From: a virus
Length of the DNA: 64,000 bases
Reading direction: 5' to 3' (one strand)
Virus record (IMG/VR): IMGVR_UViG_3300027852_000809
Location: 19,743-83,742 of that record
Shown: piece after piece, positions 2,960 through 64,000 of the stretch
Numbering within the stretch: position 1 is the first letter of the stretch
Layout: every line of letters begins with the position of its first letter
Program-made: the position numbers and the translations under genes
Notes under the pieces: model-generated
Seen by the model: only the letters and a program-made list of their open reading frames with translations
Told to the model about the DNA's origin: nothing
Databases searched by the model: none

Positions 2960-3559
2960 TTATTCGTTTTTACGGTTAAATATTTCTACTCCAATAATGA
3001 AGTAAGCTTCTTTATTTTCCCAAAGAGCAGGAAAAAGACCTTTTGGATCAACGTCTCTGCCCCAAAGATTATATTTGTCGCTACGGTATTGCATAGCAAG
3101 TCCTAATTCAAAAAACCATGGGCTTCCTTTAAATAATTCATCCAACTGGAAGTCTAAAGCTAAGCCCCAATTTCCCGAAGCTGAACCTTGGTATCTTTCT
3201 GTATGAAGTTCTTTATCTCTCCACACCCATTCACCTTGTATGGAAGGAATAATTGCTAAATCTGTATCACCTCTAAAAACATCTTCAAAAGTAATCGTGT
3301 AGCCTATTTTTCCACCAAACGACCTGTAGCCTATTTCATTGAATTCTGTGATATAAGCGCCCCATTTCATTTTATTGGTAGTAAGGGTTGCTCCAACCTT
3401 TAAAGCGATTGCTTGCTCGTTTCTACGCTCTCCATTGTCAAGTTTTTTACCTCCAATGATGGCGTTTGCAATGTCTACACCTGCGTAAACATCAATTTTC
3501 TTTACTTCTTGTGCGTATGCTATTGTTACAAATAGCATTAATAAAATTGTTTTTTTCAT
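2960..3559 (-). CDS. exported outer-membrane beta-barrel-like protein, 199 aa
   Basis: A cleavable signal peptide is clear (MKKTILLMLFVTIAYAQ, cleavage after AYA). The mature part alternates aromatic/hydrophobic and polar residues with Gly-rich turns, as in small outer-membrane barrels, with segments such as GGKIGYTITFEDVF, GNWGLALDFQL and WFFELGLAMQYR, ending in a strand-like AYFIIGVEIF. A phage-borne outer-membrane protein in an early operon suggests receptor masking or superinfection exclusion, by analogy with Lom/Cor-type proteins. Function is inferred; the export signal is direct. Confidence 0.7.
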   Translation of the reverse strand: MKKTILLMLFVTIAYAQEVKKIDVYAGVDIANAIIGGKKLDNGERRNEQAIALKVGATLTTNKMKWGAYITEFNEIGYRSFGGKIGYTITFEDVFRGDTDLAIIPSIQGEWVWRDKELHTERYQGSASGNWGLALDFQLDELFKGSPWFFELGLAMQYRSDKYNLWGRDVDPKGLFPALWENKEAYFIIGVEIFNRKNE

Positions 3560-9504: not shown

Positions 9505-9576
9505 TGTTGTTAACCTCCCGCCCAATATGAGCGGGAACGCTTGCGACTTAATAACCTTTTTTAAGAGGTCGCAACC
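9505..9576 (-). ncRNA. repeated two-hairpin leader RNA, copy A
   Basis: On the minus strand, hairpin 1 has stem TTGCGAC/GTCGCAA (9568-9574 and 9541-9547), then linker GCGTT, then hairpin 2 with stem CCCGC/GCGGG (9531-9535 and 9517-9521), then GGTTAACAAC and the gene start. The same layout recurs at 10731-10808 and 11318-11388 with different but still complementary stems, which argues for conserved RNA structure. Confidence 0.65.
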
Positions 9577-9584
9577 TCTTTCAA

Positions 9585-10730: not shown

Positions 10731-10808
10731 TTGTTGTTACAACCTGCGGACTAGGGAGAAATCGTCCGCAACGCTTCGGGCTTAATGCCTGTTTAATGTC
10801 GCCCGACC
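10731..10808 (-). ncRNA. repeated two-hairpin leader RNA, copy B
   Basis: Minus strand: hairpin 1 CGGGC/GCCCG (10801-10805 with 10777-10781) whose loop contains TTAAACAGGCATTA; linker AAGCGT; hairpin 2 TGCGGAC/GTCCGCA (10764-10770 with 10745-10751); then GGTTGTAACAAC and the start of the acidic protein. Loop, linker and tail match copy C closely while the stems differ with compensating changes. Confidence 0.7.
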
Positions 10809-10811
10809 GAC

Positions 10812-11108
10812 TTATATATCTAAAACATTAATTTCTTTAGTGTTTTCATTGAAACAATTATCGTCATAATCTGTAATAGGTTCGTCAAAATTTACGTTAA
10901 AACATTCTGTTAAAATTTCTCTGACTTCTTTACTACACAATAATTCTAATAATTTAAAATAGTCTTTGTGTTTTTCAAGTGGGCAAGTTTTAGAAACTTT
11001 ATCCAATACTTCTAAACCAATAGTATTATGTATTTCTTCTTTTATCTCTTGTAAGGAATTATACTCTTTACCTTTAAAGATATATTTTGTTATAGCGTTT
11101 ACTTTCAT
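10812..11108 (-). CDS. hypothetical protein, 98 aa
   Basis: Helical protein starting MKVNAITKYIFKGKEYNS, with a TCPLEKH segment and a Cys-containing C-terminal part. Preceded by a strong leader hairpin (11131-11179). Function unknown. Confidence 0.65.
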   Translation of the reverse strand: MKVNAITKYIFKGKEYNSLQEIKEEIHNTIGLEVLDKVSKTCPLEKHKDYFKLLELLCSKEVREILTECFNVNFDEPITDYDDNCFNENTKEINVLDI

Positions 11109-11317: not shown

Positions 11318-11388
11318 GATTGTTACAACCCCGCACCAAAGTAGTGCGGACGCTCTAAGCCTAATGCCTGTTTAACCTCGCTTAGTCG
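11318..11388 (-). ncRNA. repeated two-hairpin leader RNA, copy C
   Basis: Minus strand: hairpin 1 CTAAGC/GCTTAG (11380-11385 with 11355-11360) with loop GAGGTTAAACAGGCATTAG; linker AGCGT; hairpin 2 CCGCAC/GTGCGG (11344-11349 with 11331-11336); then GGTTGTAACAA and the start of the small membrane protein. The outer stem includes the stop codon of the upstream gene. Confidence 0.7.
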
Positions 11389-11663
11389 AGTTTTAAATAC
11401 TGCTTGTATTCCTTGCCCGTCTTCTTGCTCACGCGCTTAATGAAGTAGCCACCCTTCGCACCTTTGTACACTGGATAAACTACACCCTTAATCGTATGAG
11501 TGTATTCTGTCTTCACTGGCGCAACCTTCACGCGCTCCGTTGAGGTCTTAACTATCTCACTGCCTACAATTTTGTACGCAGGTTCTTGCGCCGTTGCTGA
11601 ATAAGTGAAGCCGAAAAGAATCACTACTAAAAATAATAATCTAAGTTTGTTTGTAAATGTCAT
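11382..11663 (-). CDS. exported small basic protein with PBCV-adaptor-like C-terminus, 93 aa
   Basis: Signal peptide in residues 1-25 (LLFLVVILFGFTYSATAQ). The C-terminal VYKGAKGGYFIKRVSKKTG and KEYKQYL follow the VYxGxxGGxYY...SGKKxYL pattern of PBCV-specific basic adaptor-type modules. It is the first gene after the main early promoter, so it should be made early and at high level, and acts in the periplasm or outer membrane. Role not known. Confidence 0.65.
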   Translation of the reverse strand: MTFTNKLRLLFLVVILFGFTYSATAQEPAYKIVGSEIVKTSTERVKVAPVKTEYTHTIKGVVYPVYKGAKGGYFIKRVSKKTGKEYKQYLKLD

Positions 11664-13910: not shown

Positions 13911-13982
13911 GGCGAAATGGTGAAGTGGAAACACGGCGGTCTGCAAAACCGCTATGCAAGGGTTCGATTCCCTTTCTCGCTT
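13911..13982 (+). tRNA. tRNA-Cys (anticodon GCA)
   Basis: Cloverleaf: acceptor GGCGAAA/TCTCGCT, short D stem GTG/CAC, anticodon arm GCGGT-CTGCAAA-ACCGC with GCA, variable TATGC, T arm AAGGG-TTCGATT-CCCTT. The acceptor has one A-C mismatch and a terminal G-T pair, and CCA is not encoded. Very like flavobacterial tRNA-Cys, so probably captured from the host. Confidence 0.9.
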
Positions 13983-14004
13983 CTAGTAAGATAGAAATAA
14001 TGGT

Positions 14005-29881: not shown

Positions 29882-30436
29882 TTAAAATCTAAATAAAGTG
29901 TAGCTAACAACTACTCCTGCGTTAAATCCTGTTCCATTATTACTAAATCCGTAACATCCTCCTAAGCCAATATTTATTCTTTTAGATTTGAATTTTTGTA
30001 ATTCCATTTCTTCTCGCTCAAGACGGATAGCAAACAATTCTTTTTCTTTTTTAAGTTCTATTTGAAATTGTAAATTTTGATAGTTCAAAGAAGCTATTTC
30101 TTTTTCAAAAGTTGGAATAATTATATTTTCATAACTATTGATAATTGAATCTTGTGATTTAATAATATTATTCTGTTGCTTAATTTTTATATTTTGCAAA
30201 CTATCTTGCTCCACTAAGTTATTATACGCTTTTGCATATTTAAGCATTTCATTGATTTCACGATAGCGAACAGACCTATATTCTTTGAAGAAACTTGGTT
30301 CAAAATCTATACTTATATCAAGGTCAAAATTATCAGCGCTGAACTCTTGCGTTGTCTGCGAACGAATCGAGTTCGCGTTTAGTAAACTGGCTACTATAAA
30401 TAGAACGAATACTGTCTTTAAGTTTAGTGATTTCAT
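29882..30436 (-). CDS. exported coiled-coil protein, candidate outer spanin with C-terminal beta hairpin, 184 aa
   Basis: Signal peptide in residues 1-27 (TVFVLFIVASLLNANS), then a long periplasmic coiled coil (about 75-155), then a Gly-rich two-strand end (RINIGLGGCYGFS, GFNAGVVVSYTLFRF) closing in Phe like outer-membrane barrel strands. It overlaps the inner-membrane coiled-coil gene by 104 bp in another frame, as Rz1 overlaps Rz. There is no lipobox Cys, so anchoring may be by beta strands, perhaps in a trimer. Spanin function is inferred. Confidence 0.6.
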   Translation of the reverse strand: MKSLNLKTVFVLFIVASLLNANSIRSQTTQEFSADNFDLDISIDFEPSFFKEYRSVRYREINEMLKYAKAYNNLVEQDSLQNIKIKQQNNIIKSQDSIINSYENIIIPTFEKEIASLNYQNLQFQIELKKEKELFAIRLEREEMELQKFKSKRINIGLGGCYGFSNNGTGFNAGVVVSYTLFRF

Positions 30437-30752
30437 CTTCTGCTTTATTAAATTTATATTTGTAATTAGGAATATTGTTTTTTATCATATCGATATTAAC
30501 ATATTCTTCTTCACGCTCTTGTTGAATACAAGCCATACTATCTATAGATTTAAGTCTATTTGACTCTGCAAGTTCAATGTCAGCTTGTTTTTCTTTTTCT
30601 AAAGCATCTAAATGATCTCCGTACATATTCCACCCTTTACTCCCACCAAAACCTAATAACGCTAATCCTAGCGCTGTTAGAGCGAGAATAATCACCCATT
30701 TTTTCATTCCTGTTTTTTCTTCAATAATCTGAAATATTTGCTTTTTGTCCAT
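30333..30752 (-). CDS. candidate inner spanin (Rz-like), 139 aa
   Basis: One transmembrane helix (WVIILALTALGLALLGFG, about 19-36) with the bulk of the protein, rich in charged helix (KAEDEITKLKDSI), on the periplasmic side. The layout matches an i-spanin, and the gene overlaps an exported coiled-coil gene directly downstream of the amidase and holin candidates. It should span the periplasm and fuse membranes at lysis. Sequence similarity to known Rz is not claimed. Confidence 0.65.
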   Translation of the reverse strand: MDKKQIFQIIEEKTGMKKWVIILALTALGLALLGFGGSKGWNMYGDHLDALEKEKQADIELAESNRLKSIDSMACIQQEREEEYVNIDMIKNNIPNYKYKFNKAEDEITKLKDSIRSIYSSQFTKRELDSFADNARVQR

Positions 30753-30860
30753 TTTATCCTATATTTGCCGTGTCAGGAGTAATACAACCCTGATTATTTA
30801 AAAGTTGCGCTATGTATAATTTATTCTGAAAACTCTCTGTTCACGCAGGGAGTTTTTTAT
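30737..30860 (+). ncRNA. predicted antisense small RNA with own promoter and terminator
   Basis: Plus strand TTTG (30737-30740), 19 nt, TATATTTG (30760-30767) is a perfect Bacteroidetes promoter inside the first codons of the minus-strand inner-spanin gene. About 60 nt later the hairpin AAAACTCTCTG/CAGGGAGTTTT (30829-30839 and 30846-30856) ends in a T run, a terminator whose single U-G pair fits plus-strand RNA only. The roughly 85-nt transcript (from about 30773) has no useful ORF and is antisense to the spanin leader. Confidence 0.65.
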
Positions 30861-30882
30861 TCGTAAATACTTTTAAATTCTG

Positions 30883-31125
30883 TCATAAAACCTTCGCCTT
30901 TTGGTCTATGCCCTTCTGCGTAGGATATATGAGCGTAAGTAGTTTTTGCCCGATACTCATATACCGATTCCATTCCAAAAAACTCACAAATCTTTTCGGC
31001 TTGTGCTTTATAATCATTTTTTTTAATATCTTTAAAAAGCCAATCTTTTTTAGTCCTTTAAAATCAAACATTTCTTCCATGAAATTTTTTAAAGTTCTGT
31101 CTTTTTCCTCTTGTGTTAATTTCAT
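30883..31125 (-). CDS. hypothetical protein, 80 aa
   Basis: Basic helical protein of the lysis cassette, MKLTQEEKDRTLKNFMEEM, overlapping nothing and sitting directly after the amidase. No transmembrane segment. Possibly a lysis accessory. Confidence 0.6.
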   Translation of the reverse strand: MKLTQEEKDRTLKNFMEEMFDFKGLKKIGFLKILKKMIIKHKPKRFVSFLEWNRYMSIGQKLLTLIYPTQKGIDQKAKVL

Positions 31126-63345: not shown

Positions 63346-63426
63346 AATTACAGTTTGTTTTTAGTTAAAATTTGAACGTTCTACAACTTTATATAAAGCA
63401 CATTAAAACGATGCTTTATATCTTTT

Positions 63427-63876
63427 GTTAGAGGTCATTGTGCAAGCACCGCAAAAAGAAACAGTAATAATTTATAAAAAGGGTCGCTACGGCTAGGTAT
63501 CGCATACTTGGTAAGCTGCATAGCTGAACACTAGAGTTAGGTCTATCGGTTGACGTATTCGACCAGAACACGCCCCACGCTTTATATAAGACAAGATAGA
63601 TTATCCGTCTAGCCACTAAGTTGCAGGAAACAGGAGACAGATGCTCACTTGGTAACAAACCCTTTTTATAAATTATTAATATTTCTCTTTTTTTGCTCAA
63701 TGACCTCTAACTCGCAACGTATGTCTACGCATCGACTAAGGTCAGTGCTTGTTTAATTAATTATCTGCGTCTACGCTTACAAAACGCTCATCTAACAAGG
63801 TATATGCCTAATAGATGCGCAGCCATAGCCTCTTATGTGTATGCTGCGCATCCACGAGGCATATACGTTGCGAGTT
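63427..63876. ncRNA. large highly structured RNA region, novel
   Basis: A gap of 562 bp without a credible gene. Domain A: perfect 14-bp stem (63427-63440 with 63698-63711) and perfect 19-bp stem (63465-63483 with 63660-63678) around a 176-nt loop with its own hairpins. Domain B: perfect 14-bp stem (63709-63722 with 63863-63876) holding ATGCCT/AGGCAT and a 10-bp stem (63814-63823 with 63843-63852). A GGTTGA-TCGACC hairpin has a U-G pair only on the plus strand. It resembles ornate phage RNAs (GOLLD, ROOL) in style; no identity is claimed. Confidence 0.6.
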
Positions 63877-63907
63877 GGCAACAATTACGGAACGGAAACG
63901 AGAATGA

Positions 63908-64000
63908 TTATTTTTTCTTTTTGACTATATCTCTAATCACATATTTACTTCCAATCTTTACGACTTCTTTTTTTTGGTCGAGTATGGCGTGAAAATCTTT
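63908..64000 (-). CDS. partial hypothetical protein, C-terminal 30 aa
   Basis: Open frame from the right edge to TAA at 63908, ending KIGSKYVIRDIVKKKK. Its start lies outside the window. Basic C-terminus. The frame is continuous to the edge and uses normal codons. Confidence 0.5.
   Translation of the reverse strand, partial: KDFHAILDQKKEVVKIGSKYVIRDIVKKKK

Follow-up and report, generated by a model that had tools for sequence, protein, structure and literature searches.

A probable mobile, non-coding cassette of integron type in a phage of Flavobacteriaceae

Near the right end of the window (the whole stretch of 64,000 nucleotides analysed here, bases 19743-83742 of an 83742-base virus record) lies a feature that is probably a mobile, non-coding cassette of integron type, which forms hairpin DNA on its bottom strand, is inserted in a Flavobacteriaceae phage and is moved by a recombinase that we infer. 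The unit with a function is 63427-63873; the 14-bp repeat around its left part, domain A, is a boundary feature and no RNA domain. By sequence comparison, the element is established as running from GTT to GTT, with complementary ends, a cargo slot and a covarying, pseudoknotted site at its right end, and as occurring in many copies across arrays, chromosomes and phages. The family is undescribed and appears to move between Flavobacteriaceae genomes and their phages.

Results

Layout of the cassette

The limits of the cassette were set by comparing relatives and by an assembly branch point at GTTGGC (Table 1). Each copy begins with GTT and an arm, followed by a short hairpin, an A/T-rich stem and the cargo slot; to the right of the slot come the complementary arm ending in AAC, domain B and then the GTT of the insertion site. 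The GC content of the feature is 0.40-0.44 versus 0.31 across the window, in line with the original prediction of a composition unlike the flanks, and the stems that it described (14, about 20, 14 and 10 bp as measured here) are all present where it placed them, as are the direct repeats GTCTACGC at 63723 and 63769 and ACTTGGTAA within domain A at 63506 and 63647; the second copy of GTCTACGC is not kept in the aligned relatives. We also agree with it that the feature holds no credible open reading frame (ORF): a 90-aa frame on the minus strand (63428-63700), which exists because the inverted repeat generates it, was rejected as a protein, having no ATG near its start and being absent from the relatives.

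Table 1. Coordinates of the cassette, its parts and its neighbours in the window.
Feature	Position	Strand	Remark
Complete mobile cassette	63427..63873	+	447 nt; opens with its own GTT and stops immediately before the GTT that starts the next cassette
Short canonical-looking attC directly before the cassette	63381..63429	+	From sequence and fold
Left terminal arm GTTAGAGGTCATTG (R' box, extended)	63427..63440	+	Identical in L007-L012
Small hairpin GTGCAAGCAC after the left arm	63440..63449	+	From sequence comparison
Inner A/T-rich inverted repeat, left arm	63453..63484	+	91% complementary to 63659-63690
Cargo slot	63485..63658	.	174 nt, non-coding here, 46% GC
Inner inverted repeat, right arm	63659..63690	+	Pairs with 63453..63484
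Right arm CAATGACCTCTAAC (R'' box, extended)	63698..63711	+	From sequence comparison
Domain B, putative attC-like recombination site	63709..63876	-	Bottom-strand pairs tolerate wobble
Outer stem arm, AAC and variable 11 bp	63709..63722	-	Pairs with 63863-63876
Inner hairpin arm GATGCGCAGC	63814..63823	-	Pairs with 63843-63852
Pseudoknot arm GCCTC, in hairpin loop	63828..63832	-	Pairs with 63856-63860
Inner hairpin arm GCTGCGCATC	63843..63852	-	Pairs with 63814..63823
Pseudoknot arm GAGGC	63856..63860	-	Pairs with 63828..63832
Outer stem partner, ending in the insertion-site GTT	63863..63876	-	Pairs with 63709..63722
Next cassette start (GTTGGCAACAATT..)	63874..64000	+	Identical to G000:2181-2307

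The region 63400-63910 folds with a z-score of -6.9 on the plus strand and -8.3 on the minus strand, and 0 of 100 shuffles equalled it. This signal is that of the inverted repeats and domain B, because the domain A loop, taken by itself, scores at chance level (z +0.33 for 63485-63658 on the plus strand, +0.16 for 63490-63663 on the minus strand). Of the two structured domains originally predicted, domain B is thus conserved and covarying, whereas in domain A the loop does not outperform shuffles and what looks like structure is that of the inverted-repeat arms. A search of the window with Rfam at curated cut-offs returned no family at the feature, its matches being three Pistol ribozymes and a tRNA elsewhere; a permissive scan (E up to 5) returned two chance-level matches far below cut-off and nothing relevant.

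Domain A is bounded by the 14-bp stem of GTTAGAGGTCATTG and CAATGACCTCTAAC, in which the R' GTT end and the R'' end in AAC are complementary at 14 of 14 positions in the window and in most relatives. Wherever the left end of a copy could be placed, as in G137, such R'/R''-type ends are complementary; in Tenacibaculum phage JQ, 6 mismatches set the left arm apart. Other subfamilies carry the short hairpins GCGCATCGAGCGC, GGGCATCGAGCCC and GCCTTCGGC in place of GTGCAAGCAC, and loops such as C(TTCG)G are present in domain A of some copies. A stem of about 20 bp (63465-63484/63659-63678) sits within the 32-nt inner arms.

The cargo of this copy gave matches of 27-30 nt only in 400 genomes. In relatives, the same scaffold carries differing cargo ORFs: several copies hold an ORF of 41-62 aa on the minus strand and others almost nothing, near-empty slots leaving a domain A of 103-109 nt in four genomes (G005, G298, G369 and G137). 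Some cargo ORFs resemble small phage zinc-ribbon proteins, with no Pfam model above cut-off. Two contigs (L110 and L111) have one small cargo ORF in common and differ in their terminal arms, apparently implying exchange of cargo or arms. For non-coding cargo, the simplest interpretation is that selection acts on movement of the cassette as such, and this copy may be selfish.

Domain B is a conserved, covarying structure

Domain B, about 165 nt of which are conserved, is a covarying structure of a class absent from Rfam. The original prediction had named uncompensated stems in homologues as evidence against it, and in seven aligned copies the stems of domain B are compensated. Two-sided changes are found at 9 of the 14 pairs of the outer stem and at 7 of the 10 pairs of the inner hairpin. 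Across 22 distinct sequences, 95.4% of cells are paired and two-sided changes occur at 16 of 24 pairs, a level of covariation that 0 of 500 shuffles reached, for an alignment that was fitted to the structure and hence leans towards it. The third helix is a pseudoknot in which the hairpin loop pairs with sequence lying 5' of the hairpin; an unbroken run of five or more Watson-Crick pairs forms in 22 of 23 sequences, versus 21% when loops are swapped between sequences. Wobble pairs number 16 G-T (read on the bottom strand) against 1 A-C, in related sequences whose events are not independent, and on account of this excess we take the bottom strand to be the folding strand. Domain B ends at the insertion point in every copy, with an outer stem that extends into the target GTT. 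In one copy (L011 3466-3640), the outer stem is mismatched at its base, as if its halves came from different subfamilies.

Relatives and distribution

Pattern scans identified complete relatives in IMG/VR contigs and in Psychroserpens damuponensis; besides the present record, seven IMG/VR contigs carry relatives. BLAST located domain B in an intergenic region of the cultured Tenacibaculum phage JQ. When the cargo or the entire element served as query in pattern and BLAST searches, no full-length copy came up other than those listed here. A covariance model built from the seven aligned copies was used to search genomes for domain B. Of the 400 Flavobacteriaceae genomes sampled, at least 15 contained it, with as many as six scored copies in one genome; these rates are lower bounds, few candidates having been scored in each. 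A deep search of one genome, G213, gave ten copies. Beyond the Flavobacteriaceae, a phylum-wide sample of 396 genomes gave three matches, all of them known members of the family. The majority of the copies found sit in bacterial chromosomes.

Insertion sites

The insertion point lies exactly before GTT, and there is no duplication beyond the shared GTT. The logo of 35 sites consists of a TA-rich half-site and then C/GTTRGC..AAT (inserted at the slash), with the TA-rich stretch 8-12 bases before C/GTT and the AAT 9-11 bases after it, and it is the same as the cassette-start motif of ordinary, canonical neighbouring cassettes. In the integron-like arrays of G005, G298 and contig 2675903128, copies sit after attC-like 3' ends and before cassette starts; head-to-tail arrays of attC-bounded cassettes were found in these three and in G291. 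G005 contains eight near-identical non-coding copies among ordinary cassettes, oriented like their neighbours, and the ordinary cassettes there have R'/R'' pairs such as GTTATGTAGC...GCTACATAAC.

Outside arrays, G213 has four 317-nt copies that are 100% identical and lie at unrelated loci, and one more at 98.7%. For two of its copies, joining the flanks yields open frames of 128 and 159 codons, which restores an IS3-type transposase and a tyrosine recombinase with no loss or duplication beyond the shared GTT; the right-hand halves match HTH_21 and Phage_integrase, and the left-hand halves alone had no Pfam match.

Setting in the phage record

The virus record encodes a phage portal protein, a large terminase, and virion and tail proteins. 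The short attC before the cassette has the R'' box CTACAAC, a stem of ATATAAAGCA/TGCTTTATAT, the loop CATTAAAACGA and the R' GTT; its loop motif and layout are also seen before the element in L007, and in Polaribacter phage P12002L such sites adjoin the methyltransferase genes. Loops of the CATTAAAACGA type recur where phages or arrays of Flavobacteriaceae have very short attC-like sites (63401-63411 in the window; L007, L064, L010 and L111; P12002L 29960-30980).

The last 127 bases of the window equal record bases 2181-2307, and the two copies diverge immediately before GTTGGC; on the left branch another cassette end precedes the shared GTT at G000:2181, G000 being the record. Since the identity extends up to GTTGGC, the contig runs from its right end back into position 2181, and bases 1-2180 form the other assembly branch; the record probably describes a circle spanning 2181 to 83615. 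Re-entry at this cassette boundary may reflect an assembly branch or a population variant, and the branches may both be phage, or one may be host DNA. The left branch (1-2180) holds an OLD-like ATPase gene cassette bounded by GTTATGC...GCATAAC and then a canonical-looking attC. The cassette after 2181 contains two small minus-strand ORFs, is closed by GTTGCCAAC and ends with a canonical-looking attC-like site that extends to G000:3101, with GTTGTAG at 3102.

Several further features were observed. The OLD-like ATPase/TOPRIM gene (G000:145-1986; L006 145-1986) looks like a defence gene, and the two small ORFs (L006 2215-2895, minus strand) are HicA/HicB-like by eye, with no Pfam support. Three Pistol ribozymes lie within about 2 kb among small phage genes (window 9509-9579, 10738-10812 and 11324-11391, minus strand), and the phage has a lone tRNA-Cys gene (window 13911-13983, plus strand). 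A group II intron reverse transcriptase adjoins the cassette site of another contig (L011 1308-2588, minus strand); this is possibly an attC-targeting class C intron.

Candidate recombinases

The integron integrase, IntI, is distinguished by an IntI-specific additional domain. None of the 15 element-bearing genomes had a protein above the TIGR02249 cut-off for IntI, and no tyrosine recombinase was found in the phage itself. XerA-type integrases are located beside copies or arrays in four genomes (G005:C13:65567-66349, G291:C28:63328-64086, G356:C13:40278-41030 and G001:C17:90253-91377); the G005 gene sits close to the end of the array and is oriented divergently to the cassettes, and at least the G001 protein lacks the IntI-specific region. 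Beside the Psychroserpens copy (L012) is a 375-aa integrase that scores above the NF040815 cut-off and below integron-integrase models; in its alignment to IntI4 (2A3V), IntI4 residues 178-244 (67 residues of the IntI region) are unmatched. XerA-type integrases occur in 13 of the 15 genomes with the element versus 259 of 400 overall, and we rejected this co-occurrence as evidence since it does not discriminate; because related integrases are so widespread, the link that we infer between element and integrase is one of neighbourhood only.

Discussion

As far as its sequence tells, the element is cassette-like at the DNA level in its boundaries, arms, arrays, target and bottom-strand folding. 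We file it as a variant of integron type and not as a canonical member because its site departs from the attC stem rules and no canonical IntI was found; it may yet form a class of its own.

The original prediction was of a large phage RNA, either a new class or a distant relative of GOLLD or ROOL. A structured, non-coding and unlisted feature is there, but a large RNA is not supported: the relatives, mostly in bacterial genomes, point to a mobile cassette bounded in the manner of integrons. Its size, phage setting and strong predicted fold would suit the GOLLD, ROOL or HEARO kind, which nevertheless is very improbable: the Rfam models, including HEARO and OLE, gave nothing apart from the two chance-level matches, domain A lacks structure in its interior, and most copies are chromosomal. 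We also regard it as unlikely that the family is a transcribed, structured non-coding RNA carried on mobile DNA, with domain B as its RNA domain, for example a minus-strand 5' leader controlling the small ORF of the cargo slot. The pseudoknot and the covarying stems with bottom-strand wobble are what such an RNA would display, the cargo ORFs are encoded on the bottom strand, downstream of domain B, and some copies have C(TTCG)G-type loops in domain A; yet many copies have no ORF, the window copy among them with its domain B intact, domain B always stops at the insertion point with its outer stem entering the target's GTT, and Rfam holds no match.

That the element is an independent transposable element with an enzyme of its own (e.g., an HUH single-strand enzyme, as in IS200/IS605-like elements), targeting GTT and favouring integron junctions, appears quite unlikely. 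The identical copies scattered over non-array sites in G213 would be expected of it, as would the hairpin ends, the specific flank motif and the absence of any target duplication other than the shared GTT. However, no transposase-bearing copy was seen, the arms act as R'/R'' boxes, the G005 copies are oriented like neighbouring cassettes, and the target logo is the cassette-start motif of canonical neighbours.

For the integron-type cassette, we propose movement by a tyrosine recombinase. This would be a host integrase of integron type, probably XerA-like as are those encoded next to arrays; it would use domain B in its folded bottom-strand form and recombine it with GTT sites of the attC, attI or attG kind. 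In the excised circle, domain B would have the arms CAATGACCTCTAAC and GTTAGAGGTCATTG at its two sides, and their pairing would lengthen its stem to give a hairpin of about 28 bp, the circular form reading CCTCTAAC-domain B-GTTAGAGG. In this phage, the cassette would have entered a small cassette cluster adjoining the short canonical attC. More tentatively, and as something possible rather than probable, this may be a new kind of mobile element: a hairpin cassette that is non-coding or has a single small ORF, with a pseudoknotted, spacer-less site, a non-IntI recombinase of XerA type and an exchangeable cargo slot, spreading via arrays, genes and phages of Flavobacteriaceae. These findings point to a mobile element that is family-wide in the Flavobacteriaceae and connects lytic and temperate phages to the cassette arrays of chromosomes, and to a recombination site at odds with the structural rules accepted for attC. 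Should an integrase that lacks the IntI domain move it, the integron would have to be defined more widely, and phages would be shown to import and export cassettes by single-strand recombination.

Among known systems, GOLLD, ROOL and HEARO RNAs share the size class and phage occurrence of the element but not its sequence or structure, and the element is mobile as DNA with exact junctions. Like MITEs and IS200-IS605-type elements, it is small and non-coding, has hairpin ends and many identical copies, and makes no long target duplication; unlike them, it has integron-type arms and target, and no linked transposase was found. Integrase-less cassette clusters have been described in phages, including Polaribacter phage P12002L, and laboratory work showed that IntI1 recombines one attC of this phage (Qi et al., 2023; PMC9892861). 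The present phage resembles these clusters in its Flavobacteriaceae host and its attC-bounded cassettes without an integrase, and the short attC with loop CATTAAAACGA beside the element is of the P12002L type, but P12002L has no domain B element.

Compared with attC, the element's site is a perfect stem of 12-16 bp, uninterrupted from the AAC/GTT boxes, in place of an imperfect L''/L' stem with extrahelical bases and a central spacer, and it has a conserved pseudoknot and about 165 conserved nt. Defined attC sites need extrahelical bases and an unpaired central spacer, and it is their bottom strand that is folded for recombination, with which the 16:1 bottom-strand wobble excess would agree. 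We know of no attC requirement for a conserved pseudoknot, and an RNA could have one too. The attC consensus is RYYYAAC for R'' and GTTRRRY for R'; the element's CTCTAAC and GTTGGCA match it in part, and canonical-looking neighbours also use GTTRGC. From integron gene cassettes, the element differs in R''/R' arms extended to 14 bp and in cargo that is absent or a reverse-oriented ORF of 41-62 aa. It has in common with them a start at GTT and an end before the next cassette's GTT, complementary R'/R'' boxes, a site predicted to fold on the bottom strand, arrays in cassette orientation and secondary insertion elsewhere in the genome, as for attG sites.
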